NCBI GenBank assembly: GCA_016187945.1
Contig: JACPIT010000010.1
Coordinates: forward strand, 1 to 64,000
Direction of reading: 5' to 3'
Length of the DNA stretch: 64,000 bases
From: Opitutia bacterium
GTDB taxonomy: Bacteria; Verrucomicrobiota; Verrucomicrobiia; Opitutales; Opitutaceae
Shown here in pieces: positions 30,001 to 50,168 of this stretch; the first letter of the stretch is position 1; every line of letters starts with the position of its first letter. A model generated the notes under the pieces. That model saw nothing but the letters and a program-made list of their open reading frames with translations. It did no database searches and was not told where the DNA came from. The position numbers were made by a program, and so were the translations under genes.

Positions 30001-33000
30001 GGTCGTGACGGACAGGCCGCTGACGGGCGTGCGAGCGCGGGCGCCGATGAACTCGATCGCAAAGCCGCCGGCGCGCGTGCCGGTGACGAGGACGTTGCCG
30101 ATGCCGACGCCGCCGAGCGCTTCGAGACCGGCGGTGAGATTGGCGATGATCTGCGCGTCGGTTTGCGCGGAGCCGATGTTCACGGCGCTCGTGTCGGCGC
30201 CGAGCGCGAACGTCAGCGCGACGGCCGGCGAGCCCAGCGTGAGCGAGTAGCGGGCGTTGGCGAGGATGCCGCTGACGACGTTGCGGACGGCGAGTTGTGC
30301 GACGTCCTTCGCGGCGAGCGCGCCCTTGAACGTGATGGCGAAGACGCGCGACGCGGCGGTCGAGCCGGAGGCTTCCGCGACGCCGACGTTGCCGGCGCCG
30401 ATGTTAGAAAGAGCGGAAAGCGCGGACTGGATCGCCTCGGCAAGCGCGCTGGCGTCGCTCTGGTAGTTGATCGCGGTCGTGAGCTGGTCGCCGAACTTTA
30501 GCGCAAAGGAGCCGACGGTGCCGGTCGAGGCGTTGATCGTGAGCAACTGAACTTCGTTCGAGCCGGGGACGGCGGCGGTGACTTCGGTGACAGAGGACGT
30601 GAGCGTCGGCGCGACTGTCGCCACGCTCAGGCCGGTGAGGTCGGTGCCGGCGAGCGCGCCGATGAACTCGACCGTGAAGCCTTCGCCGCGGTTGCCGGCG
30701 ATCAGGACGTTGCCGGCGCCGATGCCGGTGATCGACTCGAGCGCGGTCTGAAGCGCGGCGACGATGTCCGTGTCGGTGTCGTCGCCGGTGAGCGTCAGGG
30801 AGCCGGAGGAGCCGGCGAGCGTGAACGTCACCGTGCCGAGCGTGCCGGCGAGATCGAGGTGGAGAACGGTGTTGTGCGAAGCGGAGGTGTTGCGGTTCAC
30901 CTCGACGAGCATCCCCTGCCCTTCGAGCGTCAGGCCGTCGAGGCCGACGAAGGCGACCGTGCCGGCTTGGGCTTTCAAGGCCATCCAGCGCCAGCCCGGA
31001 TTCGCACGGTCGGCGACGAGCGCGAGGGCGAGATCGCCTTGCGAGAGCGAGAGGCCGAGTTGATCGGCGCTGCCGTGGTTCAGGCCGGCGAAGGCGTCGA
31101 CGCGCGTGGCGCCGATGGTGAGCAGGTCGGCGTCGACGATGCGGCCGTCGGCAAGCGTCACGGTGCCGCGGGATTTCTCGAAGGCGAAGCCTCCACTAAT
31201 AGAGAAGAAGTCGCCGACCGTGATCGCGAGGTTGCCGGAGGTTTGGGTCAGGTTGCCCTTCGCGCCGTCGATCTCGAAGGTGTGCGTCGCGCTCGGGCCA
31301 GTCGCGATCGTCACGGGAGTCGTCTTGTAGTCGATGACGAGGTCGGCGGCGTCATGGCCGGTGAGGGTGCCGTTAAAGCGGTTGATCGTGACGGAAATCG
31401 TGTCGCCGGAAACGCTCAGGCCGGGCAGGCCGACCAAGCCGAAGTCGGACGCGGTGCCTTCGAAGGTCGTCCACGAGACGGCGGTGTTGTCGATCTCGCC
31501 GTTGTAGAGCGCGAGCGCGAAGTCGAGGCCGGTCAGGCCGAAGCCCATCGCGTAGCCGGAGTCGGCCGGGCCGTTGAGGCCGACGAAGGCGGAAACGTCG
31601 GTGCCGCCGATGGCGAGCACTTCGGTTTGGACCTCGGTGCCGTCGGCGAGCTTCACGGTCTTCTGCGTTTTCTCGAAGGCGAAGCCGCCGGAGAGCTGCA
31701 CGAAGCCGAAGAGATCGATGTTGACGTTGCCCGAGGCGCGGAGCGTTTCGCCGTCGGCGGAGCTGAGGTCGATCGTGCGGTCGGTCGACGGGCCGGTGGC
31801 GAGCGTGAGCGATTGGGCGGCGAAGTTGACGAGTTTGCCGTCGACGGAAGCGCGGTTGATCGCCAGCGAGATCGTGTCGGCTTCGAGGCGGAGGCCGTCG
31901 ATGCCGATGAAGGCTGCGGTGCCGGCTTCCGCTTCGAGGGTCACCCACTCGCGGCTCGGGTCGGCGTGGTCGGTCTGGATGACGAGCGCGAGATCGACCT
32001 GGCCAAGCTGGAAACCGAGCTGCGGCGTGCCGTCGTGCGCGAGACCGGCGAAGGCGTCGATGCCGTGCGCGCCGAGCGTGAGGCGGTCGACGTTGACGGT
32101 CGTTCCATCGGAGAGCTTGGCGGTGCCGGAGGAACGCGAGAAGGCGAGCTCGCCGGAGAATTGCAGGAAACTGTAGAGGTTGATCTCAACGCGGCCGATG
32201 GCGCGGAGCAGCTCGCCGTCCGCCCCGTCGAAGGCCAGCGTCATCGATTCGGTGCTGGAGGTGGGGAGCTCGAGCGGCTTCGCCTTGAAATCGATGACGT
32301 TCGCGTCGCGGTTGGCGGGGACGTTCAGCTCGGAGTTGATCTCGATGGTCATCGTCTTGAACGCGAGCGTGACGTTCGGGATGCCGACGAAGGAAACGCT
32401 CTCGGCCGTGGCGCGCAGGGCCTGCCACTCGCGCGGCGTATCGGTCGAGTTGGCGGCGAGTTTTTCGGAGAAGATCGCGAGGGCGAAGTCGACGCCGGTC
32501 AGGCTCAGGCCGATCGCGTTGGTCGAGGAGGCGGGGCCGTTGATGCCCGCGAAGGCGCTGAGCCCGCTGCCGCCGACTTGGAGCGTCTCGGTCGTGACGC
32601 TCGAGCCGTCGGCGAGTTTGACGTCGGCGAGCGATTTGCGAAACGCGAGGTTGCCGCTGACGTGGAAGAAGCTGCCGACCGTGAGCGTGAGATTGCCGCC
32701 GACCTGGAGCAGTTCGCCGTCGGCGCCGTCGAACTCGAATTTCAGGCTCGTGCTGCTGCTCGTCGCGACGGTCATCGGCGCGCCGCTGTAGTCGATGACG
32801 AGGTGGTCGGGATCTTGGTCGGTGCCGACGCCGAGGGCGCGGTTGATCGAGATCGACAGCGCGGCGCCGGAGACGGCGAGGCTCGGCATGCCGAGGAGGC
32901 TGAAGCCGTTGGCGGTGGCGTAGAGCGTCTGCCAGGTGATGCCGGCCATCTTTTCCTCGGAGGCGTCGGGCGTGAACAGGCCGAGCGCAAAGTCGAGGCC

Positions 33001-36427: not shown

Positions 36428-38419
36428 TCATATCTGATCGAGTGCCTGACCGGGCATGAGCGCGGCGGCGAGTTCGTGATCCTGCTCCATGACGCGGCGG
36501 CGGCGGTGAAATGCGGCAGCTTCGGCGGACGCCTGTGCACGCTGGAAAAACTTTTCCACCCAACGCTCGCCTTGTGCGCTGCCGGTCGCGAGCAACCGGG
36601 CGGCAAATCGCTTCGCGACGCCGGACATGAACCGCTCCGCCAGATCGTCCTCGAGCGACGCGAACGTCCGCGAAGACCCCGGATCGCCCTGGCGTCCGGC
36701 ACGGCCTTCGAGCTGACGGTCGATGCGGCCGGATTCGTGCAGCTCGGTCACGATAACGTGCAATCCGCCCACCGACGCCACGCCGGTGCCGAGGCGGATG
36801 TCGGTGCCACGGCCGGCCATGTTGGTCGCGACCGTGATCGCTTTCGCTTCGCCCGCGAGCAGGACGATCGCGGCCTCCTGCTCGTGGCGCACCGCGTTGA
36901 GCAGCGTGAAGCTCAGATTGCGGTGCGTGAGCAGCCGCCCGAGATGCTCGCTCGCCGAGATGCTCCGCGTGCCCACGAGCACGGGCCGGCCTTGCGCGTG
37001 CACGGCGCAGATTTCCTCGACCACCGCGCGCCACTTCTCGTCCGCCGTCGCGAAATACCGCGCCGGCCAGCGCTGGCGGACGTTCGGGCGATTCGGCGGC
37101 ACCTTGAGAAACGGCAATTCGTAGATCTGCCAAAACTCCGACGCCGCCTCCGCCGCCGTGCCGGTGATGCCTCCGAGTCGTCGAAACAGTCGGAAGAAGC
37201 GCTGAAAGCTCAGCCGCGCCAGCGACTCGTTCGGCTGGGTGATGTCGAGCCCTTCCTTCGCCTCCACCGCCTGGTGCAAGCCGAGCTGCCACGACCGCCC
37301 CGGCATCATGCGGCCCGTCGATTCGTCGACGATGATCACGCGTCCGTCGGAGATGACGTATTGCTTGTCGCGGAGAAAAAAATGCCGCGCCTGCAACGCC
37401 TGCACGACGAGCCCGCTGACCCAGCCCGGCTGATTGAAGATCGAACGTCCGTGCTGCGCGCACCAGTCGTCGATGCGTGCGTGCCCCGCCTCGACGAGCT
37501 TCGCCTCCTTGTGGCGCACGTCCAATTCGTAGTGCTCGCCGGGCAAAAGTTCGGCCGCGAGCCGGTTGGCCTGCCGGCAAAGTTCGACCAGAGCCTCGTT
37601 CGGCTGCGGGCGGCTGATGATGAGCGGCGTGACCGCTTCGTCGATCAACTGGTTGTCCGCTTCGTCGACGATCGCCGTGTGCAGGCCGCGCAACACGATC
37701 GGCTCCTCGCCCACTCCACCGCGCACGAGCTTCGCGACCATGCGCCTTCCCGGGTCGGCCATCACGCCAAGCACGAGACGATCGCGCAGGAAATCCGCGA
37801 CGAGTTCCTTGCTCGTCGTATAGACCACGTTCGCGCGATACGCCTCGCGCCGCTCGAGCGCCTCCATCGGCCCCGTCACGGCGGCGACCGTCAGACCGCA
37901 GCGTTCGTAGAGCGGTCGGAGCGTCGCCGCGTCGCGCGTCGCGAGATAATCGTTCGCGGTGATCACGTGCACCGGTCGCGCCTGCCAGCCGGCCGCGGCC
38001 GCAGCGAGCGCGATCGTGAGCGTCTTGCCCTCGCCCGTCGCCATTTCGACGAGCCGTCCGTCGGCGAGCCCGAGCGCGCCCATCAATTGCACCGGAAACG
38101 CCCGGAAACCGAGCGCGCGATGCGCCTGCTCGACGATCACCGGCAACGCGTCCGCGAACGCCTCGCGCCACGTCGCGCCCGCACGGCGCACCGCCTCGCG
38201 GCGCTCGCGCATCTCGACTTTCAGTTCCAAGTCGCCCGCCGACGCGAGCACGCCCGCCGCCGCATGCAGCGCGAACGCCTGCTCGCGAAACTCGCGCGAG
38301 AATTTTCGCCGGCTGTGCCACGCGCCGTGCGCGCGATGCACGACCGCGTCGAGGCCGACGGGCAGTTTCTCGGGCAACACGAGTTCGGTGCGGCGGACTT
38401 CAGCGAGCGGCGCGTGCAT
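36428..38419 (-). CDS. Short SecA-like preprotein-translocase ATPase
   Basis: The 663-residue product has SecA motifs in order: FPVQLMGALGLADG, Walker A ATGEGKT (127-133), ITANDYLATRDA (~153-164), DEAD-type Walker B VDEAD followed by LIDEAVTPLIIS (251-269), then TNMAGRGTDIRLG and EGRAGRQGDPGSSR in the second motor domain, with SLEDDLAERF after it. It is about 240 residues shorter than housekeeping SecA. It ends soon after the second motor domain, lacking the C-terminal metal-binding tail and much of the helical region. The ATG at 38419 is five bases past the stop of the M50-HlyD gene, so coupling is likely; the frame stays open upstream but there overlaps that gene. It presumably powers movement of the giant LEPR protein (inference). 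The alternative is a housekeeping SecA, which the length and context argue against. Confidence 0.9.
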   Translation of the reverse strand: MHAPLAEVRRTELVLPEKLPVGLDAVVHRAHGAWHSRRKFSREFREQAFALHAAAGVLASAGDLELKVEMRERREAVRRAGATWREAFADALPVIVEQAHRALGFRAFPVQLMGALGLADGRLVEMATGEGKTLTIALAAAAAGWQARPVHVITANDYLATRDAATLRPLYERCGLTVAAVTGPMEALERREAYRANVVYTTSKELVADFLRDRLVLGVMADPGRRMVAKLVRGGVGEEPIVLRGLHTAIVDEADNQLIDEAVTPLIISRPQPNEALVELCRQANRLAAELLPGEHYELDVRHKEAKLVEAGHARIDDWCAQHGRSIFNQPGWVSGLVVQALQARHFFLRDKQYVISDGRVIIVDESTGRMMPGRSWQLGLHQAVEAKEGLDITQPNESLARLSFQRFFRLFRRLGGITGTAAEAASEFWQIYELPFLKVPPNRPNVRQRWPARYFATADEKWRAVVEEICAVHAQGRPVLVGTRSISASEHLGRLLTHRNLSFTLLNAVRHEQEAAIVLLAGEAKAITVATNMAGRGTDIRLGTGVASVGGLHVIVTELHESGRIDRQLEGRAGRQGDPGSSRTFASLEDDLAERFMSGVAKRFAARLLATGSAQGERWVEKFFQRAQASAEAAAFHRRRRVMEQDHELAAALMPGQALDQI

Positions 38420-38424
38420 CGGGC

Positions 38425-40599
38425 TCAGATTTGATAACGCTGCTGCAACATCTGGCGGAACTGCCGCGCCCAGCGCACGCCGAGCGGCGACCACGCGAGG
38501 TCGAACCGCATCACGCCGACGCGCCCTTGCCAGACGGCTTTTTCGTCCGCGCCCGGCAGGTCCGACCCGGCGACCCGACCGACGACGAGGAAGAACGGCT
38601 CGGCGGCGTGGACGCCGGAGTTGTCGTCGGCGCGCGTCTTCACCGGGCCCTTGCCGTTCCACCCGAGCGCGGCGCTCGGCAAAATTTCCTGACGGCCCGG
38701 CACGACGCGCCATTCGCGGATTTGCAGCACGCGCCCCGATGTGCCGGGAAAACGAATCTCCGCGCCGTCCTTCGCCGCACCGAAGAGATCGCTCGCGTCC
38801 TCCTGCGAGACGATCGCGAAAAATTCCCAATCCGGTCCCGCGCCCACGATCTCGCCGAGCCGCACGCCGCGCCCGAGCCAGAGGCCCTTCCAGTCGTCCG
38901 AGGTCGGCGCGACCCACTGCCCCGCTCCGATCGCGCGGACGTTCAGCTTCGCGCGATCCGCCTCGAGTTGCGCGAGGCGCTGCTCCGATGCCTGGCGACG
39001 GACGCGCATCGGCTCGATGCCGCCCGCGAAATCCGCGAGCATCTGCCGCTCGCGGCTGCGCGATTCCTCAAGGTCGCCGCGCGCGGCGGCGATCGAGAAA
39101 TCGAGCTCGGGGCTCTCGAACTTCACCAACGCCTTGCCCGGATCGGCGCGTTGTCCGCTGCGCGCCGGCAGATCGACGACCCAACCGGCGACTTGTGTGT
39201 AGACTTCCTGCGAACCCGACGCGCGCACGACGCCCGGTGCGCGAAAATGGTGCGGCACCGGCACCGCGCCGATCAGCAGCACGAGCGACGCCGCGATGCC
39301 CGCCGCGACGAGCCACGCGCGTTTGCGTTCGCGCTCGATGCGTGGCTCGCGCACGAGATAGCGCACCGCACGCACCACGGGGACGATGAACGCGCCGATC
39401 ATCGTCACGACGCCCGCCAGCAAACCGATGCCGAAGTAGCGGTCGGCCACGAGCAGGATGATCGTGATCGTCACCATCATCCGGTAAACCCAGCTCGCGA
39501 CGCCGAAGATCGTCAGCCACACGGCGTCCGCCCTCGAACGCGCCGGCGTCTCCAGCGAGGTCGAGCCGAGCGCGTGTTTCTCGAAGAGATACAGCCACTG
39601 CCGCATCGAGCGCGATTGCAGGTTCGGCGAGTCGGTGATGTCGGAGAGAACGTAGTAACCGTCGAAACGCAGCAGCGGATTCAGGTTGAACACCACCGTC
39701 GAAATCGAGGCGACGATCATGGTGTTGTAGGCGAGACTGTTCAGCGCGCCCGGACCGGTGTAAGCCCACACGATCGCCGCGAGACTCGCGTAGGCCAGCT
39801 CGGGGATCATGCCGCCGAGGCCGACGAGCACGCGTTTCCAGCGCTCGCGAAACGCCCACGCCGCCGTCGCGTCGACGTAGGGCACCGGCGTGAACACCAG
39901 CAGCGTCACGCCCATCGCGTGCACTTCGCCGCCGAACGCCTTCACGGCGTAGGCGTGGCCGAATTCGTGGATCAGCTTCGCGAAGGAAAACGCGACATAG
40001 AGCAACAGCAGGTTGCCCGGCGCGAGGATCGCCTGCGACTGGTCCATCGCGCGATCCCAGTTGCCGAGCACCATCGCGAGACCGATGGCGACCGCCACGC
40101 CCCACGCGACCGCCGTGGCAGGCGTCGCGAGCCAGCGCATCCACGGCCATGTGCGCGCGAGCCACGCATCGGGGTCGAAGAGCCGGATGCGCAGAAAGAA
40201 AATGCCGAAGATATTCGACGCGAGTTCCTGCCGCACGCGCTTCTGATGGCGCTCGAAAAGGCGCTTCGTGTCCGCCGCCGTGTCGGCCGCGAGCAAGTTG
40301 GCCTGGTAGAGCTGCGCGAGCATGTTGAGCACCTCGCCCTGCCCCGGCGTCGTGTTCGGCGAGCGGCGCAGACAGCCGAGCCAGACTTCCTCGACCGTCG
40401 CCGTGCCGTCGAGGCGCGCGATGAACTCGTGCGCTTCCGGACGGAAACGGAAAAACGAATTGGTGAATCCATCCTGCGCGACGAACCACGGCTCGCCGCG
40501 GAAGCGCTGGCGCCGCAGCGAGACGGACGGGCGCAATTTCAGCCGCTGGCCCGCGACGCGGTGCCACGACTCGGTGAACAGAGGTTTGGGTTCGCTCAT
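38425..40599 (-). CDS. PqqD-like / M50 site-2 protease / HlyD fusion membrane protein
   Basis: 724 residues. Residues ~20-120 resemble a PqqD-like winged-helix peptide-binding domain. The multi-pass core holds the zinc-protease motif HEFGH (211-215) in a membrane segment and the second M50 motif NLNPLLRFDG (~305-314, Asp313). Further membrane helices reach ~440. Residues ~445-724 form a HlyD/biotinyl-lipoyl-like periplasmic region (QVAGWVVDLPARSGQ). All predicted catalytic residues (two His, Glu, Asp) are present. It sits 10 bases after the GAF-HlyD stop and five before the SecA-like start, so it is the middle gene of an export operon. It could act as a membrane channel-like partner or process the cargo N-terminus; neither is shown by sequence. 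Similar architectures are annotated as efflux-associated site-2 proteases. Confidence 0.9.
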   Translation of the reverse strand: MSEPKPLFTESWHRVAGQRLKLRPSVSLRRQRFRGEPWFVAQDGFTNSFFRFRPEAHEFIARLDGTATVEEVWLGCLRRSPNTTPGQGEVLNMLAQLYQANLLAADTAADTKRLFERHQKRVRQELASNIFGIFFLRIRLFDPDAWLARTWPWMRWLATPATAVAWGVAVAIGLAMVLGNWDRAMDQSQAILAPGNLLLLYVAFSFAKLIHEFGHAYAVKAFGGEVHAMGVTLLVFTPVPYVDATAAWAFRERWKRVLVGLGGMIPELAYASLAAIVWAYTGPGALNSLAYNTMIVASISTVVFNLNPLLRFDGYYVLSDITDSPNLQSRSMRQWLYLFEKHALGSTSLETPARSRADAVWLTIFGVASWVYRMMVTITIILLVADRYFGIGLLAGVVTMIGAFIVPVVRAVRYLVREPRIERERKRAWLVAAGIAASLVLLIGAVPVPHHFRAPGVVRASGSQEVYTQVAGWVVDLPARSGQRADPGKALVKFESPELDFSIAAARGDLEESRSRERQMLADFAGGIEPMRVRRQASEQRLAQLEADRAKLNVRAIGAGQWVAPTSDDWKGLWLGRGVRLGEIVGAGPDWEFFAIVSQEDASDLFGAAKDGAEIRFPGTSGRVLQIREWRVVPGRQEILPSAALGWNGKGPVKTRADDNSGVHAAEPFFLVVGRVAGSDLPGADEKAVWQGRVGVMRFDLAWSPLGVRWARQFRQMLQQRYQI

Positions 40600-40609
40600 G
40601 GTCGCGCGC

Positions 40610-42442
40610 TCACCACCAGAGTTTCAGCCGCAGGAAATCGATCAGGCGATGCGTTGCCATCCACAGCAGGCTGCGGTGGCCCGACTCGATTTTCGCCACA
40701 CCGGTCATGCCGGGCCGCAGCCAGTCGGCGCTGCCGGCCATGTTCGCGCGCAGCACGAAGACGCTGCCGTCGCGATCGACGACCGCCGACGGCTCGACGC
40801 GATCGATCGCGACGGCAAACGTGTCTTCCGGTCGCGCCGTAAATGCGATCTCCGCGCGCTTGCTGCCGGCCACGAGATCGATGTCGCGCTCCGGCACGCG
40901 CATCTCGACGTAGAGACCCTTGAGCTGCGAAACCTTGATCAGCACGTCCCCCGCGTGCACCGGCGCGCCGAGACGCTCGCGCAAATCGCCTTCGACCACC
41001 ACGCCGTCGAACGGCGCCGACATCACCGCGCGGCCGAGGCGGTAGCGAATGAGATTCACGCGCGCCTCCGCCTGCGCCTCGAGGGCGCGGTTGGCGCGGA
41101 GATCGGCGAGCTTGTGGTCGGCTTCCGCTTTTTCCGCTTCGGAGGAATAGCGCTGCTTCTCCGCGAGCGCCGAAGCGAGTTCGACGACGAGGTCGCTCGT
41201 GTCGAGACGCAGCAACTCGTCGCCCGCGCGCACGAGGTCGCCGGGACGCACCTTCACGGCGCCGAGATAGCCCTCGAACGGCGCGGGCAGGTGCAGCAAT
41301 TTTTCCGCGCGCACGATGAACGTCGCGTCGACGCGATACGACAGCGGCACAAACGCCGCGAACGCCAGGAACACCGTGCCGGCCACGGCACCGACCTTGA
41401 TCCACGTGTGCTTCGGTCCGAGAAATTTTGCGAACGCCTGCCGCCACTCCGCGGCCCAACGCGCGCCGAACCAGCGATCCTGCCGGTGCAAATCGTCGAG
41501 CCGGCGCGCGACCTGATCCGCGATGACGCGCAGCGCGAGCGCGTCGTAGTCGCTGAACGCCGTCGCCCGTTCGAGCGTGAGCGCGCCGATCGGTTCGCCG
41601 GCGATTCGCACCGGCACCGAGAGCAGCGCGGGCACGCGTTCGGTTTCGCCGTAAGTCTGGTGATCGCGCACGATCGCTTCGGACTCCGGCGCGGCGGGCC
41701 AGGCGATTTCCTCGTCCTGATCGCACGATTCCTCCATCGCTGCCTCGAGCTTCTGCACGACCGCCATGCGTTTTTCGAAATGGTCAGTGCCGCTGATCGC
41801 CTTCACGCGGATGTAGGAACTTTCGCGCCAGCCGAGCGACACGCGCGAGCAGCGGTGGCGCGTCGCGATCTCGTTCACGAGCGCCATCGCGACGGAGAGG
41901 AAACGCGTGTGGACGTTCGTCGCCGCGAGCACTTCGAGCGCTTGCGAGAAATTCGTGAGCTCGCGCTTCGAGCGGTCGAGCTGACGCTGCCGCTGGTAGA
42001 GCAAAGGCGTGTCGGCCGCGAGGCGCAGCATCTCGCCCGCCGCGAGGAGATCGTCCGCCGTGCCCGGCGTAACCGCCGCGGCGAAGAGGCACTGATCCTT
42101 GGCCTCACCGGTGTTCAACGCCACGAGCACCAAACCCGCCGGCGCGTTCGCGGCGGCCGGTTGCGCCGCGATGCCCTCGCTCAGCGCCGACTCGGCCAGC
42201 GCCTCGAAACTCGCACCCGCCATCGCCACGGGAAAGTCGCGCGGATTCGGCCACGCGGCCGCCAGGCGCCATTGCCCCTCGGTGCGCACGATGACGCGAC
42301 CGCCGGCGGCGCGGGAAATTTCCGTGCCGGTGCGCGCGAGCAGCGCCCAGAATTCCTTGGCCGGTCCTTCAAAAAGACGGCACGCCTCCAGGCGCGCGAT
42401 GGCCTCCGCGAACGAGGCACTCCGAGAATTCGTGTGATTCAT
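40610..42442 (-). CDS. GAF-domain HlyD-family membrane fusion protein
   Basis: 610 residues. The N-terminal cytoplasmic half contains a GAF-like domain (~175-315, ending in PVRIAGEPIGALTLER and ADQVARRLDDL). One transmembrane helix (~348-366) follows. The periplasmic part is HlyD-like: lipoyl half-motifs (FEGYLGAVKVRPGDLVRAGD and APFDGVVVEGDLRERLG), a short coiled coil (~418-455) and a beta-barrel. This is the first gene of the minus-strand operon, with its ATG at 42442 facing the divergent TolC gene. Adaptors normally bridge an inner-membrane pump to TolC; the added GAF domain suggests control by a small ligand or by protein contact. No ABC transporter gene accompanies it. Confidence 0.88.
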   Translation of the reverse strand: MNHTNSRSASFAEAIARLEACRLFEGPAKEFWALLARTGTEISRAAGGRVIVRTEGQWRLAAAWPNPRDFPVAMAGASFEALAESALSEGIAAQPAAANAPAGLVLVALNTGEAKDQCLFAAAVTPGTADDLLAAGEMLRLAADTPLLYQRQRQLDRSKRELTNFSQALEVLAATNVHTRFLSVAMALVNEIATRHRCSRVSLGWRESSYIRVKAISGTDHFEKRMAVVQKLEAAMEESCDQDEEIAWPAAPESEAIVRDHQTYGETERVPALLSVPVRIAGEPIGALTLERATAFSDYDALALRVIADQVARRLDDLHRQDRWFGARWAAEWRQAFAKFLGPKHTWIKVGAVAGTVFLAFAAFVPLSYRVDATFIVRAEKLLHLPAPFEGYLGAVKVRPGDLVRAGDELLRLDTSDLVVELASALAEKQRYSSEAEKAEADHKLADLRANRALEAQAEARVNLIRYRLGRAVMSAPFDGVVVEGDLRERLGAPVHAGDVLIKVSQLKGLYVEMRVPERDIDLVAGSKRAEIAFTARPEDTFAVAIDRVEPSAVVDRDGSVFVLRANMAGSADWLRPGMTGVAKIESGHRSLLWMATHRLIDFLRLKLWW

Positions 42443-42622
42443 GGGGTCGTGTGTGTGGCGAAAAATGCGCGGCCGAAAAGCCGCCGGAAATTCACCTTCG
42501 TGGGAAAGGTAGGAATTGCATTCTCCGGGGAAACACCCAGTTCATATCGGGACGTTCTGCCAAGTTCAAACCGAAGAAGACCCCACGTTTTTTCTCCGAT
42601 GGCCTTGGCGGGAAACATCCAC
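42443..42622. promoter_or_regulatory. Divergent intergenic region of the export locus
   Basis: 180 bases separate the outward-facing GAF-HlyD and TolC genes, so promoters for both operons are expected here. The stretch is less GC-rich than the genes. For the TolC side, GGGAA at 42609-42613 serves as a plausible ribosome site ahead of the ATG at 42623. I see no convincing -35/-10 pair or operator palindrome, so only the region is called. Confidence 0.45.
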
Positions 42623-44155
42623 ATGAAGCGTCCGTTGACCGTTCTCCTGACCTTGCTAACCGGCTTGCAGCTCTTTGCTGCGGCCCCCTCGGCCGAGGAG
42701 CCCGCGCCCGCCTCCTCCAGCCGCGCGGCGTCGCTGCACGACTTGCTCGTCGCCGCGATGAACACGAATCTCGAACTGCGCGCGAAACGGATCGATCCGG
42801 AGATTCAGAAGCTGCGCACGCAAGGCGCTTGGGGCGCGTTCATGCCGAGCTATGTGGCCGGCTATTCCTGGACCAGCAACGAGCGGGCGAAAACGGCGCA
42901 GGAAAACTCGTCCATCTCCTCGATCTTCGGCGGCAAGAACGATCCAATCCTCCGCGAAGACACCGTCCGTGCACAAACCGGCCTCACCGGCAAACTGCCT
43001 TTCGGCATGACCTACGAAGCCGTCACCGGCGTCGATCGCCTGCGCAATAGCTACAACACCTTCCGCTCGGAATACGTCGCCAACTCCACGCTCACGATCA
43101 CTCAACCGTTGCTGAAGGATTTCGGCTTCCGCGCCAACCTCGCCGAGGTGCGCCTGCAAAAACAAGCGACCATCGCCGCCGAATACGAGCTGCGCACCGT
43201 CGCGCTCCGCATCATGCGCGACGTCGCGAACGCTTACTACGAAATGGCTTTCGCCCAGCAGAACGTCGACGTGAAGGCCGAAGCCGTCACGGTCGCCGCC
43301 AACCTCGTGCGCGAAAACCAGCGCCGCCTCGACGAAGGCAAGATGGCGCCGATCGACGTCACGCAGGCGCAGAGCCGTCTCTCCGAAGCGAAGGAGGAAC
43401 TCGTGCTCGCGAAAAACTTCCTCGCCCAACGTCGCAACGCGCTCCGCGAGCTCACGCACGAATCGTTCAATGCCGACGAAGCCGCTGAGCTGGTCGTCGA
43501 CCGCGAGTTCGTCCGCACCGAAGTGCCCGCCATCGATCGCGAGGAGGCGACCGGAGCGCTGTTCAAACACAACCCGTCCTACCTCTCCGCGCTCGAACTC
43601 GCGAAAGCCGACGACATCCGTCTCGCCTACGCGCAAAACCAGCGCTGGCCGCGCCTCGATCTCAAGGCGTCCTTCGGCTACAATGGCCTCAGTCGCAACA
43701 TCGACATGGCCTACCGCAATTATTGGGAGCGCACGCAGCCGTCGTGGACCGCCGGCCTCGTGCTCAACGTCCCGATCCACGACCTCGCCGGCAAGAGCCG
43801 CGTCGCCGAATCGAAGCGCCGCAAAGCGCAGACGCTCCTCGAAATCAAACGCACCGAAGTCACGCTGCTCTCCGCCTTCGACACCGCGCTGCGCGACATC
43901 TCCAACGCCACCGAACGCGTCGGCCTCGTGAAGGACACGGTCCGCCTCGCGCAATCGGCCCTCGACGTCGAGTTGCGCCGCCTCAGCAGCGGCCTCACGA
44001 CCAGCTACAACGTCGCGCAAGCGCAGCGCGACCTTTCGCAAGCGCGCTCTCGCGAACTCGCCACCTACGTCGACCTCAACAAAGCCGTCACGCAGCTCTA
44101 CTTCGTCCTCGGCACGCTCGACCAGCAACTCCGCGTCAGCGTGACCGCAGAATAG
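42623..44155 (+). CDS. TolC-family outer membrane efflux protein
   Basis: 510 residues from the ATG at 42623. An in-frame ATG 24 bases upstream is possible, but this start gives a clean signal peptide (MKRPLTVLLTLLTG...AAAPSAEE) and has GGGAA about 10 bases before it. Two TolC-type halves are visible: LxxLLxxAMxxNLELRxxR near the mature N-terminus with QPLLKDFGFR later, and NPSYLSALELAKADDIRLAYAQ opening the second half, followed by long helices (IDVTQAQSRLSEAKEEL; TTSYNVAQAQRDLSQARSRE). It would form the outer-membrane exit duct. It is followed by a second adaptor gene, and both face away from the SecA-like/M50/HlyD operon; together these look like one secretion apparatus. Confidence 0.93.
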   Translation: MKRPLTVLLTLLTGLQLFAAAPSAEEPAPASSSRAASLHDLLVAAMNTNLELRAKRIDPEIQKLRTQGAWGAFMPSYVAGYSWTSNERAKTAQENSSISSIFGGKNDPILREDTVRAQTGLTGKLPFGMTYEAVTGVDRLRNSYNTFRSEYVANSTLTITQPLLKDFGFRANLAEVRLQKQATIAAEYELRTVALRIMRDVANAYYEMAFAQQNVDVKAEAVTVAANLVRENQRRLDEGKMAPIDVTQAQSRLSEAKEELVLAKNFLAQRRNALRELTHESFNADEAAELVVDREFVRTEVPAIDREEATGALFKHNPSYLSALELAKADDIRLAYAQNQRWPRLDLKASFGYNGLSRNIDMAYRNYWERTQPSWTAGLVLNVPIHDLAGKSRVAESKRRKAQTLLEIKRTEVTLLSAFDTALRDISNATERVGLVKDTVRLAQSALDVELRRLSSGLTTSYNVAQAQRDLSQARSRELATYVDLNKAVTQLYFVLGTLDQQLRVSVTAE

Positions 44156-44262
44156 TCCGTCGCCTCTCGTCGGAGCAGCCGGCAGCAGACGGCTGTCCGC
44201 ACTCCGGCGAGCGCTGCGACGAAATCCCCTAAGCACTTCCCCACGTTCCCCACTCTCCCGCC

Positions 44263-45144
44263 ATGTTCTCTCCGACCTCCACCCTCCGTCCGCCGTTCTC
44301 GATCTCACCAAAGCGTTCGCTCATTAGGTGGAGCGCGTTGACCCCAACGCGCTCTTCAACCGCCGCTCGCAGAAAGCGCGTTGCGGTCAACGCGCTCCAC
44401 CCGCGAGCCGCCTTAGGTCGCGCGATCGCGCTCGTCGCCTTCGCCGCCACCGCCCTCGCCGCCCGCGCCGAGGCGCTGCGCTTCGACGGCCTCGTGCTCC
44501 CCTTCAAGGAAGTCGTCGTCTCCTCGCCGGTGCAGAGCACGATCCAGTCGCTCAACTTCAAGGAAGGCGACACCGTCAAAGCCGGCGCCGTCCTCGCCCG
44601 TCTCTACGGTCGCGTCGAGGAACTCGACATGCTGCGCGCCAAAGCCGCACTCGAGAAACGCGAGTTCGATTTCAAGGGCTCGAAGAATCTCTACGCCGAC
44701 AAGATCATCTCCGAAGACGAGGCGCTGAAGAACAAGATCGAGCTCGAACTCGCGCGCCTCCAAGCCGAACAGGCCGCCGAACTCTTTAACCAACGCACGA
44801 TCCTCGCGCCGATCGACGGCCTCGTCGTCGAACGCATGCGCGAGATCGGCGAGAGCGTCACCGCCACGCAGCCGATGTTCCGCCTCGTCGACATCGATCG
44901 GGTCTACGTCCAGTTCTACCTGCACTCGGAACAACTCGTGCGCCTGCACGTCGACGACACCGTGAAAGTCCGCTGCACGAACGGCGGCGCCGACGCCGGC
45001 AGCGCCGACACGTTTGTCGGGAAGATCGACTTCATCGACCCGCGCGTCGACGCCGCCAGCGGGCTGCTGCGCGTGAAGGTGCTCGTCGCGAATCCGAAGC
45101 ACGTCATCAAACCCGGCCTCCGCGCCGAAGTCGCGCTGGAGTGA
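44263..45144 (+). CDS. Periplasmic adaptor, HlyD/RND membrane-fusion type
   Basis: 293 residues if begun at the ATG at 44263. The secretion signal is GRAIALVAFAATALAARAEA, then a first lipoyl half-motif (VVSSPVQSTIQSLNFKEGD), a short helical hairpin, a second half-motif (ILAPIDGLVVERMREIGES) and beta-barrel domains ending PGLRAEVALE. The start is uncertain. A 73-bp inverted-repeat element (44328-44400) lies inside the predicted N-terminus, and residues before the signal peptide look like translated repeat. A TTG at 44338 preceded by GGTGGAG is an alternative. It probably links the TolC-like duct to the inner-membrane components. Its last 11 codons are duplicated about 850 bp downstream. Confidence 0.85.
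   Translation: MFSPTSTLRPPFSISPKRSLIRWSALTPTRSSTAARRKRVAVNALHPRAALGRAIALVAFAATALAARAEALRFDGLVLPFKEVVVSSPVQSTIQSLNFKEGDTVKAGAVLARLYGRVEELDMLRAKAALEKREFDFKGSKNLYADKIISEDEALKNKIELELARLQAEQAAELFNQRTILAPIDGLVVERMREIGESVTATQPMFRLVDIDRVYVQFYLHSEQLVRLHVDDTVKVRCTNGGADAGSADTFVGKIDFIDPRVDAASGLLRVKVLVANPKHVIKPGLRAEVALE
44328..44400. repeat. REP-like inverted repeat at the 5' end of the adaptor gene
   Basis: Perfect 16-base arms, gtggagcgcgttgacc at 44328-44343 and its complement at 44385-44400, flank a 41-base loop that itself contains nested aacgcgct/agcgcgtt pieces. It resembles mobile REP-type palindromes. It lies at or just inside the start of the HlyD-type gene and may shape the mRNA 5' end or attenuate translation. 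Confidence 0.75.
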
Positions 45145-46347: not shown

Positions 46348-48360
46348 ATGGCGCTGAGCACGAAACAAGCCCCGGCCGGCCAACTGAAGCGGCCCCATTT
46401 TCACCTCGTCTGGAAACCTGCCGGCCAGCCGAACGCGTCGTGGAAGTGGCAACTTTTCGGCTACTACTGGCGCGAGACGCCGCGGCGCTTGCACGTGGTG
46501 TTGTCCCTGCGCGGTATGGCGGTGTGGGCGGCGTCGCTGAGTTTCGCCGCTTATCTCATCGCGGCGGCGGTGCTGGTGGCGATTTGGGACCGCAGCCCCT
46601 ACAACCAAGTCGGCTACCTCGACGTCGTGCTGCCGACGCGCTGGTCCGATCTCCGCGCCCTCCGCGGCAAAGGCCTGATCGCCGAGGGCATCGCCGAAAT
46701 CAGAGCGAAACGCTACGCCACCGGCATCATGCGCCTGACGCAAGGCGTCGCCCGCAACCCAAAGGATTTCACCGGCCGCCTCGAACTCGCCCGGATCTAC
46801 GTCGCGCTCGGCCAGCTTCACCGTGCGCAAGATTTCCTGATCGAAGGGCTCGACCTCGGCACGCCACCGCGCGCTTACCGCGACACACTCCTGGCACTGA
46901 CCGCTTATATGGCGGATCATGAAAAAGTGCTCGCGCTCGTCGCCCGCTTGGAGCGATCCGCGGATGCCGAATCGCAAAGGCAGATGTTATCTTGGAAGGC
47001 GTCGGCTCTTGAAAAGCTCGAACGTGTCGCGGACCTCAACGAGCTACGGCAGCGCCTCCGTGCGACCACGCCGAGCATCGCCGTCGAGGCGGCATGGGCG
47101 CGCACCCAACTCGCCGCCGGCGCCCCCAAGATCGCACTCGCCGAACTGCGCCGAGACCGCGCTCGCTTCGGCACGCCCGTCGAAGGCCTTGAACTCGAAC
47201 TCAAATTAGCCGCGGCATCGCATGATCTCGCGGTAGTGGACGAAGCGGTGGCTGCGTGGCTCAAGCTCGATTCCGCTGGCGCCGTTCCACGAGCGAGAGA
47301 AATCGTCGCCCGAATAACGCTCGAGCAAACCGAGCTCGCACGTGAACGGATCCGCCAATACTTCCTCCACTTCGGAGACAACGCGCCGTCGGCGCAGCTT
47401 CTCTTTCGCGTGCTCTTCCGCGAGACGGACGTGAACTGGGTGCGGTTTGCTTTTGGCGAAGCTGAAGCGGCGGGCACGGTATCGATTCCCGTGCGGATGA
47501 CCTGGGTCGAGGCACTCATGAACGCGGGGGAGTTCGTCGAAGCCGCACGTCAGTTGAGCATCACCCGCAAAGCGATTGTGACCGAAAAATTCGCCGATCG
47601 CGACTGGTCGATCGGCACGCAGCGTGTGATTGATTGCATCACCGCGCCGACGCCCTCGACCGAATCGTCGCTTGTTGATTTTTTTGCCGAACACCGACTC
47701 ACTCCGGACGCCTACCTGTTTGCGTGGCGGACACTCTTGCGTGCGAAGTCACCGATCGCGTTCAAGTTCTCCGGCATCGCCAACAATCGCTTTCCCGCGT
47801 TGCGCTTGGGTGAGTCGAACGCCGAACAGGCCGTTCTCACCACGATCAAGCTGCCCGTCGCGGAGCCGCCGCTCCCCAAAGCGGTCGCTACGGCACCAAC
47901 TCCGACGACGCCGCAAACGACGAATGCCGAGGAAGCGGCGAAAGCCCTGCCCACTGAGGGCCATGCGCGCAACGAGTTGAAGCGGATCGATGGTTTTATC
48001 GCAGTTCACGACTGGGATCGCGCATTCGAGGCGCTGCAAACCGTCGAGCGTGCAAATTTCGATGTGTTGCGCGGCGAATGCGCGTGGCGGCGCCTGCAAA
48101 TCCACGGCGAGCGCGCCGAACTCTTCCAACTCACTTCGGCGGCTCGCATCTACCTTCGCAGTCCCGCAGCAAACCAGACAGCCCTGCGAACGCTCGCTGA
48201 ACGATGGAGCGATCGCCGCCACCGCGAGAGCCTGCTCGCCTTGCTCCGCGAAACAGCGCGCCAATTCCCCGCGGCAACATGGGCGGCCCTGAAGCTCAAA
48301 AACGCCGAAAGCGAGTTGATCGTCGCGCCAGATGATAACATCACCTTGCCACAAAAGTGA
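46348..48360 (+). CDS. Membrane-anchored TPR-like protein of unknown function
   Basis: 670 residues. After a basic, aromatic cytoplasmic segment there is one transmembrane helix (~57-80, MAVWAASLSFAAYLIAAAVL). The rest is helical and resembles degenerate tetratricopeptide repeats. The clearest are GIMRLTQGVARNPKDFTGRL followed by ARIYVALGQLHRAQDFLIEG (~125-165). A Pro/Thr/Ala linker (~520-550) precedes a second helical domain. The ATG at 46348 has GGTGA just upstream. It ends 73 bases before the convergent terminator stem. It could be a periplasmic scaffold for the neighbouring secretion or surface-protein genes, but nothing in the sequence proves that. Confidence 0.8.
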   Translation: MALSTKQAPAGQLKRPHFHLVWKPAGQPNASWKWQLFGYYWRETPRRLHVVLSLRGMAVWAASLSFAAYLIAAAVLVAIWDRSPYNQVGYLDVVLPTRWSDLRALRGKGLIAEGIAEIRAKRYATGIMRLTQGVARNPKDFTGRLELARIYVALGQLHRAQDFLIEGLDLGTPPRAYRDTLLALTAYMADHEKVLALVARLERSADAESQRQMLSWKASALEKLERVADLNELRQRLRATTPSIAVEAAWARTQLAAGAPKIALAELRRDRARFGTPVEGLELELKLAAASHDLAVVDEAVAAWLKLDSAGAVPRAREIVARITLEQTELARERIRQYFLHFGDNAPSAQLLFRVLFRETDVNWVRFAFGEAEAAGTVSIPVRMTWVEALMNAGEFVEAARQLSITRKAIVTEKFADRDWSIGTQRVIDCITAPTPSTESSLVDFFAEHRLTPDAYLFAWRTLLRAKSPIAFKFSGIANNRFPALRLGESNAEQAVLTTIKLPVAEPPLPKAVATAPTPTTPQTTNAEEAAKALPTEGHARNELKRIDGFIAVHDWDRAFEALQTVERANFDVLRGECAWRRLQIHGERAELFQLTSAARIYLRSPAANQTALRTLAERWSDRRHRESLLALLRETARQFPAATWAALKLKNAESELIVAPDDNITLPQK

Positions 48361-48432
48361 TGGGGCCTGGTAATTGGCCGCAACGGACAACTACCGGACT
48401 AGGATACGGAGGAAGAGCACCCAAAGCACAAA

Positions 48433-48455
48433 GGGCGAGCCGATGCGGCTCGCCC
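48433..48455. terminator. Hairpin terminator between convergent genes
   Basis: A perfect 9-base stem, gggcgagcc / ggctcgccc, with a 5-base loop. It lies 33 bases beyond the stop of the PEP-CTERM gene and 73 bases beyond the TPR-like gene. Short A and T tracts flank it, so it may serve both strands; on the minus strand it is followed by TTTGTGCTTT. Confidence 0.8.
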
Positions 48456-48487
48456 TCTTAATGGAATATCCGCCGCCAGAGAGAAGG

Positions 48488-49105
48488 TTAGGCGATCAGT
48501 CGGTGCCGGCGATAGGCAATAATGCCCATTGCGAACACACCGAGAATCGCAGCGTAGGTCGTCGGCTCAGGAACTGCGGCTGGGGCCGTGCTGAGGCTCG
48601 CATAGCCGAGCGTGTTGGCAAAACTGCCCAATGTCGTGGACACCGTGAAAAAATTATAGGCGAGAGTATTGCCCGCGGACGGAGCCACCCATGTATTATC
48701 GTTCGGATATCCGAATTCACCATATGCTGTGCTGTTTCCGGGCAACGCTTGCAGTGAAGTGAGCGTCGGGAACCAACGGACCAGCAAAAAATTCGCCGCG
48801 TAGGTAGACGAAACCGAGAGCGAGATCGAAGTCGTTCCTGTGTTGAGCCCGAGACCGGCGCTGCCGTCCAAGAGCCCCGAATAGATCACGACATCGTTGC
48901 CGCTTACGAAACTAGAGTCGGTTGGAGCCCCGAATAGAGCATCTGAAGAAGCGATAATCTTCACCAAGCTACCTTCCGGAACCGCTGTGCCATTAGCGCC
49001 GGACAAGACGCCTAAGCCAAAATCCATCGCGATAGTTTGCGCGCGACCAGCAACTGCGGAGACCGCGATAGCCAGAACGAGGAGGATCTTTTTCGAGTTT
49101 TGCAT
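48488..49105 (-). CDS. PEP-CTERM sorting-domain secreted protein
   Basis: 205 residues. The ATG at 49105 gives a signal peptide (MQNSKKILLVLAIAVSAVAG, cleavage after GRAQ). The mature part is a Ser/Thr/Gly/Ala-rich beta protein. The C-terminus is a textbook PEP-CTERM tail: VPEP at ~178, a hydrophobic helix (YAAILGVFAMGIIAY) and a basic end (RRHRL). Such proteins are processed by exosortase and placed at the cell surface; no exosortase gene is in the window. It lies 29 bases after the stop of the TIGR02597-like gene and probably shares its transcript. A longer upstream start is possible but would place sequence before the signal peptide. Confidence 0.92.
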   Translation of the reverse strand: MQNSKKILLVLAIAVSAVAGRAQTIAMDFGLGVLSGANGTAVPEGSLVKIIASSDALFGAPTDSSFVSGNDVVIYSGLLDGSAGLGLNTGTTSISLSVSSTYAANFLLVRWFPTLTSLQALPGNSTAYGEFGYPNDNTWVAPSAGNTLAYNFFTVSTTLGSFANTLGYASLSTAPAAVPEPTTYAAILGVFAMGIIAYRRHRLIA

Positions 49106-49133
49106 GATGTTTTTTTGAAAATTGCTAGATTCC

Positions 49134-50168
49134 TTAGATGCCTGTGGCGAAGTTCCACGTTCCGCTCGTGCCATTCGCCGCCTTACGGATGATGAAACCG
49201 CTACCGGCCTTCAAGACGGTGGAGCCGAAATTGAGGGACGCCGACGAGCCGCGTTTGCGCCACGCACCATTGTAGTAATAATAGGTGGCGCTGGACGCTA
49301 CGTTGATTCCCGTCGCGGCCGGATCATACCACAATAGCTGGTCACTGATCGCCAGCGGAGACGAACTGGCCGCAAAAACCGTTCCGGCCAAGCCGACCTG
49401 ATCCAATGTGACATCAATCGGGAAAGAGATCGAAACGAAATTGTCGTTCTGCGCGGAGGCGGTCGCTTCAATAACGCTTCCCAAGTATGCCGGCTGGACA
49501 CGGCCAGTTTGAACCAAAGTTGTCGCGGCGGCTTTGTTGCGCTGGATCACGTAGCCATCAGGGAAGATCAGGGTCGAATCAAAGCTGGTGCCGGCAGAGG
49601 AGCCGACTTTACGCCACGCGCCGTTCAAAAAATAGTAGGTTCCGCTAGATGCACGATTGATGCCCGTCTGGGTCGCATCGTAGGTCAGAACTTCGGTCTG
49701 GCGGGCAAGGGCGGAGCTGGAGGCAACGAAAGCGGAGCCCGCTTGGCTAGCAGGGAAAAGCGTGCCGAGCGTCCAGAAGGGAACAACCTCGAAGGCGTCG
49801 CCTGCTGTGATGGTCGTCAGATTCAGACCAGCATTGTCGACGGTGAGCGTATCAGTCGTGCTTGCGGTGATGATGAAATACTGACCGCGCTGGGCACCGC
49901 TCAGCACACGCGCATAGTAAGTCGAAGCACCCGGTCCAAACGCGCTCGCCGTCCAGTTGGGCGTTCCTGCTGCTGTAAGTGTCGTCGCGCTCACGCTAGC
50001 AATCGTGCCGACCCATGCGGCATCTCTCGCGAGCACAGGAGAAATTCGAGTATCAGTGCTTGCCGCAGCAGCGTTTGTAAAACCGCCCACCGGCTTCGTA
50101 TATGCCACGTCGGCGGCGAGAACGGGGGCGGTGCAGATCAGGGGCAGGGCGAAAGCCAGGAGTCTCAT
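49134..50168 (-). CDS. Secreted TIGR02597-like protein
   Basis: 344 residues from the ATG at 50168, which gives a signal peptide (MRLLAFALPLICTAPVLAAD). The mature part has two related halves with YDATQTGINRASSGTYYFLN and YDPAATGINVASSATYYYYN, each followed by GAWRKxGSSAxxxF, then a YVIQR- or FIIRK-type strand. It ends in a GTWNFATGI tail. The repeated pattern matches what I know as TIGR02597, a family of unknown function concentrated in Verrucomicrobia and often found beside PEP-CTERM proteins. An upstream ATG at 50243 would add 25 residues and spoil the signal. The 200 bases before it show no clear promoter. Confidence 0.8.
   Translation of the reverse strand: MRLLAFALPLICTAPVLAADVAYTKPVGGFTNAAAASTDTRISPVLARDAAWVGTIASVSATTLTAAGTPNWTASAFGPGASTYYARVLSGAQRGQYFIITASTTDTLTVDNAGLNLTTITAGDAFEVVPFWTLGTLFPASQAGSAFVASSSALARQTEVLTYDATQTGINRASSGTYYFLNGAWRKVGSSAGTSFDSTLIFPDGYVIQRNKAAATTLVQTGRVQPAYLGSVIEATASAQNDNFVSISFPIDVTLDQVGLAGTVFAASSSPLAISDQLLWYDPAATGINVASSATYYYYNGAWRKRGSSASLNFGSTVLKAGSGFIIRKAANGTSGTWNFATGI

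Follow-up and report, generated by a model that had tools for sequence, protein, structure and literature searches.

A SecA-like ATPase, an M50-HlyD fusion protein and a TolC duct as a candidate export apparatus for proteins with a LEPR-XLL leader

Gene content of the locus

We analyzed a 64-kb stretch of DNA from an Opitutia bacterium (hereafter, the window), in which a compact set of five genes adjoins a giant reading frame of the LEPR-XLL family, and we propose that the five gene products may export proteins bearing an N-terminal LEPR leader. The window covers bases 1 to 64,000 of a contig (C13; 129,361 bases) in a 5.47-Mb genome. On its minus strand, three genes follow one another, namely, those for a GAF-HlyD adaptor (40610-42442, 610 amino acids [aa]; HlyD_D23, 7.9e-20; GAF, 2.9e-7; strongest hydrophobic segment at about residues 350 to 368), a PqqD-like/M50/HlyD fusion protein (38425-40599, 724 aa; daptide_HExxH, 1.2e-51, below cut-off; Pfam M50, 2.9e-5, below gathering), here called M50-HlyD, and a short SecA-like ATPase (36428-38419, 663 aa; Pfam SecA_DEAD, 1.6e-82). 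The gaps between them measure 10 and 5 nucleotides (nt), respectively, and the giant frame follows after a further 106 nt. Upstream, a spacer with probable promoters (predicted; 42443-42622) divides these genes from a divergent, plus-strand unit encoding a TolC-family outer membrane channel (42623-44155, alternative start 42599; OEP, 2.5e-39) and a second HlyD, a periplasmic adaptor of the resistance-nodulation-division (RND) type (44263-45144; RND_mfp, 1.6e-37, above cut-off). An earlier note on this DNA had named these five genes, all of which are indeed present with high family significance, and had them flank the giant; the genes stand, but the arrangement does not, as all five lie on one side of it. 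Its statement that the locus lacks an HlyB-type ATP-binding cassette (ABC) transporter holds, none being found among the locus genes.

Such gene sets have been described before. In loci from several phyla, Kamneva, Poudel and Ward (2015; PMC4452313) found, as their main text reports, secondary SecA_DEAD genes together with genes for M50-like, HlyD, GAF-HlyD and sometimes OEP proteins and no ABC transporter, and they proposed the SecA_DEAD protein as the ATPase and the M50 protein as the pore. The gene set and the idea of SecA in place of HlyB were thus already published in 2015, and the central idea of the earlier note is theirs (PMC4452313). The locus in the window resembles those loci in its second SecA_DEAD protein, which lacks most of SecA_SW and exists beside a canonical SecA, in its M50-HlyD, GAF-HlyD and HlyD neighbors, and in having no ABC transporter. 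Among the carriers that they report is the laboratory strain Methylobacterium extorquens AM1, with a GAF/M50/SecA_DEAD/HlyD operon (META1p2402-2399). Their main text names no cargo and contains none of the words LEPR, giant and cargo (PMC4452313). In the open-licence PubMed Central literature, preprints excluded, we found no link between LEPR-XLL proteins and this module, and the LEPR-XLL passages there, from two papers, are silent on it. What is new here is the link to a LEPR-XLL RTX cargo, the invariant zinc site, a probably PqqD-like N terminus, and a sister type of locus with its own leader variant.

A natural SecA-like protein that ends near B. subtilis SecA residue 602

The SecA-like protein comprises nucleotide-binding domain 1 (NBD1), the preprotein-binding domain, NBD2, and the start of the scaffold helix. 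It aligns with residues 23 to 602 of Bacillus subtilis SecA, no alignment extends beyond residues ~602 to 606, and Pfam returns no SecA_SW match for it. In its structure model (predicted local distance difference test [pLDDT] 91.2; predicted template modeling score [pTM] 0.89; Foldseek match to SecA, 3.4e-51), the C-terminal end forms a long helix (residues 615 to 654). It thus lacks all of SecA beyond B. subtilis residue ~602, a part that includes the helical wing and, as the element acting inside SecY, the two-helix finger. The nucleotide-binding motifs are kept: the residues of GxGK and DExD, as well as the last motif's arginines, vary little or not at all across 50 aligned rows.

A canonical-type SecA of 1,002 aa is encoded elsewhere in the same genome (G000:C8), and a second SecA beside a canonical one recalls the Gram-positive SecA2 systems. 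In contrast to those systems, the protein described here has TolC and HlyD partners, its putative cargo has no hydrophobic signal peptide, the motor is shorter, and it scores below the SecA2 cut-offs of NCBIfam (TIGR03714, 440 of 930 bits; TIGR04221, 432 of 725; TIGR04397, 501 of 1,085; NF012136, 382 of 1,100). Among the 50 Foldseek matches listed, we also found SecA-N68 (5k9t; 598 columns, with the sequence match reaching chain residue 527), a truncated Escherichia coli SecA with a 576-residue chain that is, by title and length, of similar extent. SecA-N68 is a laboratory fragment, whereas the SecA-like protein is natural and conserved.

An M50-HlyD protein with an invariant zinc site

In all 50 aligned M50-HlyD proteins, drawn from many phyla, the zinc site (H211, E212, H215, N307, P308 and D313, forming HExxH and NPxxxxD) is invariant, which suggests, as far as sequence can, a working protease and not merely an anchor or a pore. 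Pfam M50 is matched by 48 of the 50 alignment members (A4) at E≤0.01, and at E≤0.001 the daptide protease family NF041824 is matched by all 50 and the LiaK/epipeptide family NF058609 by 49. The window protein stays below both curated cut-offs (176 of 300 bits and 35 of 225 bits, respectively), and it is the only one of the 50 whose score is set against the daptide cut-off. It shares an M50 domain with HExxH with the daptide and epipeptide intramembrane metalloproteases, but it differs from them in being fused to an HlyD adaptor and in scoring below both cut-offs.

At the N terminus, Pfam PqqD (PF05402) is matched by 18 of the 50 proteins at E≤0.01, the window protein not being among them. In the model of the window protein (pLDDT 86.2), residues 20 to 105 form strands followed by three helices; the PqqD fold likewise consists of strands and then helices, and PqqD-like domains bind leader peptides in the pathways of ribosomally synthesized and posttranslationally modified peptides. 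The middle part is helical with ~7 to 8 hydrophobic segments, and the C-terminal adaptor part resembles MexA/AcrA-type adaptors (best Foldseek match, 8.4e-12). We assume that the PqqD-like part is cytoplasmic and the adaptor part periplasmic. Given the invariant zinc site and the probably PqqD-like N terminus, reading and cutting of a leader by this protein are plausible. As separate observations, one genome carries, besides the main type, a further M50-HlyD that is divergent and accompanied by a SecA-like gene of its own (G186:C1:2605802-2609782, locus L217), and several genomes of the Planctomycetota sample described below have two or three M50-HlyD copies.

The giant frame and its nonhydrophobic leader

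The giant LEPR-XLL protein, the probable cargo, occupies positions 1-36321 on the minus strand and has at least 12,107 aa, there being no stop in 12,107 codons. Its start at 36321 is predicted as the first start codon after a stop. At the other end the frame runs open to base 1, the contig edge (12,112 aa for the frame in its own genome), so that the C terminus is absent from the assembly. The leader, EALEPRLLLSATP, lies near the N terminus (36208-36273, minus strand) and matches the LEPR-XLL model NF012209 over residues 17 to 38 (29.9 bits; cut-off, 17). Repeats-in-toxin (RTX) calcium-binding repeats (PF00353, 5.4e-25) occur in five stretches, the best of them at 2056-2160 on the minus strand (residues 3388 to 3422 of piece window:1-12321:-); apart from RTX, the three pieces of the giant that were searched gave no Pfam match at E≤0.001. 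A tRNA-Arg called by ARAGORN at 31396-31482 (minus strand) falls inside the giant frame and was set aside as a probable false positive.

The highest mean hydropathy over 12 residues is 1.06 in the leader of the giant versus 2.04 and 2.43 in the N termini of TolC and HlyD, respectively. Across 42 leaders (31 from SecA-type loci, with the window included, and 11 from the sister type considered below, repeated contexts being counted once), it reaches 1.32, and none has a hydrophobic Sec-type signal peptide by this crude measure of hydropathy. Ordinary Sec targeting is therefore unlikely. This bears on a two-step route, which we consider quite unlikely, whereby the SecA-like protein would feed the cargo to SecYEG, as Gram-positive SecA2 does, and M50-HlyD and TolC would then take it across the outer membrane. 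Besides lacking the hydrophobicity expected of a Sec signal peptide in its cargo (again by crude hydropathy), such a route would have to work with a motor devoid of everything past B. subtilis residue ~602, where SecA has its two-helix finger, and with RTX proteins, which usually fold when they meet calcium. It draws support from the motor being a SecA homolog, from the model having its top query TM-scores, among the matches listed, with SecY-engaged SecA (6itc, 0.77; 5eul, 0.76), and from the position of the SecA_DEAD proteins near actinobacterial SecA2 in the tree as the main text of the 2015 study describes it (PMC4452313). These TM-scores count equally in favor of the SecA-driven machine proposed below.

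Conservation of the gene set

An alignment of 18 M50-HlyD proteins (A1) was run against genome contigs, and the best 80 of at least 586 loci were kept with flanks of at most 10 kb; some of them share genomes with the 337-genome sample described below (L103 with G140, L104 with G283, and L109 with G126). They come from Verrucomicrobia, Lentisphaerae, Phycisphaerae, Proteobacteria, Desulfuromonas-type bacteria, Thermodesulfovibrionia, Fibrobacter, Elusimicrobia, Spirochaetales, Acidobacteria, Chlorobiaceae and Rokubacteria. Of the 70 loci whose sequence continues for 2.2 kb or more past the M50-HlyD gene, 63 have a SecA-like gene in the same orientation that begins no more than 600 nt behind it. 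Among the 57 whose upstream sequence spans 4.5 kb or more, GAF-HlyD is found in 54, HlyD in 48 and TolC in 47. The seven loci without an adjoining SecA-like gene were rejected as counterexamples: the genomes of L121, L132, L137, L169 and L174 carry the gene elsewhere, in L168 it lies 4.2 kb further on, and L180 has only pieces there. A second SecA search detected a SecA-like gene in 30 of 30 module genomes (at least 761 bits), apart from M50-HlyD in six of them (those five and G086).

An ABC ATPase, by a motif test for Walker A plus LSGG, occurs in just two of the 80 related loci, so the survey of neighborhoods lacking HlyB that the earlier note had suggested came out in its favor. A leader open reading frame (ORF) is visible in 17 of the 80. 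Coincidental neighborhood was rejected as an explanation, since gene order is kept across the 80 loci and the co-occurrence described next recurs in three genome samples.

Co-occurrence with LEPR-XLL proteins

In each of three genome samples, we looked for matches to M50-HlyD and to NF012209 (E≤0.001) and assessed their pairing by one-sided Fisher tests, the P values of which ignore shared ancestry. Among 337 genomes of the window's own phylum, 22 have a strong M50-HlyD (at least 288 bits with a single protein as query, the next lower score being 225), 22 have LEPR-XLL, and 20 have both (P=6e-28). Among 246 Planctomycetota, the phylum of G343 (a Phycisphaerales metagenome-assembled genome [MAG], the source of locus L175), the counts are 18 (A1, at least 600 bits), 16 and 13 (P=3e-15). 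Among 299 genomes from the family of G342 (a Comamonadaceae MAG, the source of L150), they are 44 (at least 350 bits), 44 and 38 (P=2e-35), or, at 600 bits, 30, 44 and 28 (P=9e-26). The linkage with LEPR-XLL proteins that the earlier note had wished to see checked is thus strong at the genome level, with both partners in 20, 13 and 38 genomes. Along the chromosome, the nearest NF012209 match lies 2, 7, 26, 30, 48, 61 and 150 kb from M50-HlyD in seven loci of six single-contig genomes. These data suggest that LEPR-XLL proteins provide this locus with its candidate cargo and signal.

Exceptions occur in both directions. At the chosen cut-offs, two, three and six LEPR genomes of the respective samples lack the module. 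G217 is one of them, and its SecA-like gene is on the LEPR contig, a different contig from that of its M50-HlyD; G495 and G570 have the SecA-like gene away from their M50-HlyD; G704, G715, G716, G761, G860 and G875 have sister-type M50-HlyD matches (294 to 333 bits); and G508 is also among these LEPR-only genomes. The LEPR match of G119 was set aside as a false positive, being partial (E=9.6e-4) in a genome with only canonical SecA and no SecA-like gene. NF012209 also misses divergent leaders, such as that of L062 (LETRLLLSATA).

Frames with a leader span 184 to 20,466 codons across the three samples, the short ones possibly being clipped at contig ends. The earlier note had spoken of a route for giant proteins. 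A giant is present here, but cargo need not be of that size, as many LEPR-XLL frames of the Planctomycetota sample have 400 to 2,500 codons, some of them perhaps clipped at contig ends. One genome of that sample (G563) has 17 LEPR-XLL matches, so that one module may serve many cargoes coded elsewhere.

The co-occurrence also bears on the possibility that the giant leaves by another type I system, or is not exported at all, and that the pairing merely follows genome size or lifestyle. This we regard as very improbable. The pairing recurs in three samples with few exceptions, and the nearest NF012209 match is 2 to 61 kb from M50-HlyD in six of seven loci (150 kb in the seventh). In 23 module genomes of the window's own phylum, with at most 31 candidates scored per genome, no protein exceeded the curated cut-off of the HlyB class (TIGR01846), so the HlyB-type transporter elsewhere in the genome that the earlier note had named as a counterexample was found neither in the window's own genome nor in the others (0 of 23). 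General ABC proteins do match the HlyB model below cut-off in all 23, and one genome (G289) has an LssB/LapB-class exporter (TIGR03375) above cut-off, both of which leave some room for another exporter. The window's own genome has neither class over cut-off among the at most 31 candidates scored; both are absent over cut-off from 22 of the 23 genomes, PrtD-type and C39-type exporters not having been searched for.

Proposed export mechanism

We propose, with a probability of roughly 55%, that the locus encodes a machine exporting proteins that carry a LEPR-type leader at the N terminus, in which M50-HlyD is the entry, the SecA-like protein the motor, and HlyD and TolC the duct, with the RTX giant just downstream as its cargo. 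At the level of sequence, the genes, their conserved order, the genome-level pairing with LEPR-XLL, the intact ATPase and protease motifs, the nonhydrophobic leader, and the missing C-terminal part of SecA are in evidence; from these we infer physical contacts, a pore, cleavage, and a role of the SecA-like protein as energy source. In the proposed machine, the PqqD-like N-terminal domain of M50-HlyD would bind the leader on the cytoplasmic side, and the membrane-embedded M50 part together with the HlyD part would form the inner membrane entry, where the zinc site would cut or release the leader. The SecA-like ATPase, a natural SecA minus the SecY-entering part, would then drive ATP-powered threading with the N terminus first, while the adaptors (M50-HlyD, GAF-HlyD and the stand-alone HlyD) would connect the entry to TolC. 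Outside the cell, calcium-dependent folding of the RTX part would help to draw the chain out.

Threading that starts with the N terminus accords with a leader at that end, with a motor derived from SecA and with a reader of the PqqD type; HlyA is threaded in the opposite direction. Type I secretion (HlyB-HlyD-TolC, or LapBCE for giant RTX adhesins) is otherwise similar in its TolC, its HlyD-type adaptors and its RTX cargo, but it differs in that no ABC transporter is present in the locus studied here and in that its signal is C-terminal, whereas an N-terminal element is proposed here; the C terminus of this particular cargo lies beyond the contig.

The pairing with LEPR-XLL gives a gene set described since 2015 a candidate cargo and a candidate signal, and it makes the exit of proteins of 10,000 to 20,000 residues from Gram-negative cells a testable question. 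Should the proposed machine exist, SecA could function apart from SecY and in connection with a TolC duct, and an M50 protease could serve as a secretion gate or signal peptidase.

A sister branch without an adjacent SecA-like gene

The proposal has to be weighed against a sister set of 27 loci (L086, L088 to L101, L200 to L209, L215 and L216), in which M50-HlyD scores 276 to 439 bits with the family model. Family models match HlyD in 22 of them, a GAF-HlyD-like protein in 21 and TolC in 9, and clustering of neighbors places TolC-like ORFs in 12. No SecA-like gene is present in the retrieved stretch of any of the 27, and by eye no further conserved ATPase appears among their clustered neighbors. 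In 19 of the 23 sister genomes searched (G202, G187, G150 and G054 lying outside the search), the short SecA-like gene is found nowhere, and in the other four it is elsewhere in the genome (G217, G495, G570 and, as a 520-aa piece, G704). Some sister loci nevertheless carry leader-bearing cargo, with an FD-type leader ORF in nine. Hence, the central motor may be something other than the SecA-like protein, which may be optional for the apparatus as a whole. The earlier note had called it the only visible energy source; this stands insofar as there is no ABC transporter in the locus, but it may not be the only possible source, given the sister loci without an adjacent SecA-like gene.

All these sister data weigh against our proposal, as do several further points. 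The co-occurrence P values take no account of ancestry, the M50-HlyD cut-offs were chosen after the scores had been seen, and the two types of locus overlap in score, those linked to SecA reaching down to 413 bits and sister loci up to 439. At 600 bits, only 28 of the 44 LEPR genomes in the family of G342 have the module; there are module genomes without a LEPR match (2 of 22, 5 of 18 and 6 of 44 in the three samples) as well as the LEPR genomes without the module; and the nearest NF012209 match is 26 to 150 kb away in five of the seven loci. The exporter search took in the HlyB and LapB classes. Finally, the window M50-HlyD itself reaches 23.9 bits with Pfam M50 against a gathering threshold of 27.2, and it has no PqqD match in the Pfam scan.

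The leaders differ between the two types of locus. L085 was counted as SecA-type by a SecA-like gene on its contig and L145 by its M50-HlyD score, although its contig ends first; leader-motif matches in L218, L085 (a minus-strand ORF), L129 (1409-2863) and L205 were set aside as chance. Sister leaders mostly read FDGA (LExRxxFDGA) versus LLSA in the SecA type, and D or E stands at the FDGA position in 9 of 11 sister-type leaders versus 0 of 31 SecA-type leaders (P=1.2e-7). Both sister-type exceptions are in one locus, L088 of genome G099 (1759-5067 and 15271-16842), and read LEQRQLLAG and LETRTLLAG, neither FDGA nor LLSA. In a phylogeny of 79 M50-HlyD proteins, those labeled as SecA-linked fall in clusters, with four changes by neighborhood labels and three by genome labels, numbers that do not support a single origin, gain or loss of the SecA link; an earlier labeling that mixed neighborhood and genome evidence (two changes) was replaced by these separate labels.

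These observations are what recommends the view of the SecA-like protein as a helper, such as an unfoldase or targeting factor, of an apparatus powered by proton motive force, by canonical SecA or by folding outside the cell, as would have to be so in the sister loci lacking the gene: the sister loci keep their HlyD, GAF-HlyD-like, TolC and FD-type leader ORFs without an adjacent SecA-like gene, most sister genomes searched do without it altogether, and its clustering on the M50-HlyD tree makes it look lineage specific. We nevertheless judge a helper role unlikely, because 63 of 70 loci have the gene immediately after that for M50-HlyD, its ATPase motifs are invariant, and the leader varies with the type of locus (D or E at the FD position being lacking in 31 of 31 SecA-type versus 2 of 11 sister-type leaders). 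Returning to the SecA-driven machine, a broader formulation would make it a separate class of secretion system, in which PqqD-M50-HlyD reads the short, nonhydrophobic LEPR leader, a stripped SecA motor drives export through TolC with the N terminus first, the sister branch reads LExRxxFDGA, and the leader is a code specifying the branch by which a protein is exported; such a route would account for the arrival of many very large bacterial proteins at the cell surface. This we advance tentatively, at somewhat under even odds. The sister branch is a natural experiment on the contribution of the motor.

Other features of the window and of related loci

Clustering of the remaining neighbors brought out two families that are not general to SecA-type neighborhoods. 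A SapC gene (PF07277 in the one member scanned) is present in 16 of 140 loci, mainly from Proteobacteria and often just upstream of tolC (e.g., L151:14152-15102); SapC is known to occur beside S-layer type I secretion genes. A family with a histidine kinase as its longest member is found in 12 loci.

Within the window, a TPR-like protein whose N terminus holds a hydrophobic segment (46348-48360, plus strand) adjoins the export genes and has no relatives in the 140 related and sister loci. Near the LEPR locus, a small protein (48488-49174, minus strand) ends in a PEP-CTERM-like tail with VPEP, a hydrophobic stretch and arginines, a different surface-sorting signal. In the 48001-50000 interval, G+C drops to 0.578 versus 0.65 to 0.69 in most of the window, and the sign of the GC skew flips at ~36 kb and ~48 kb, tracking gene direction. 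A second very large repeat protein (52438-63999, minus strand; 3,853 codons) is open at the window edge, with its N terminus beyond the window, and contains He_PIG, Ig and NHL/beta-propeller domains.

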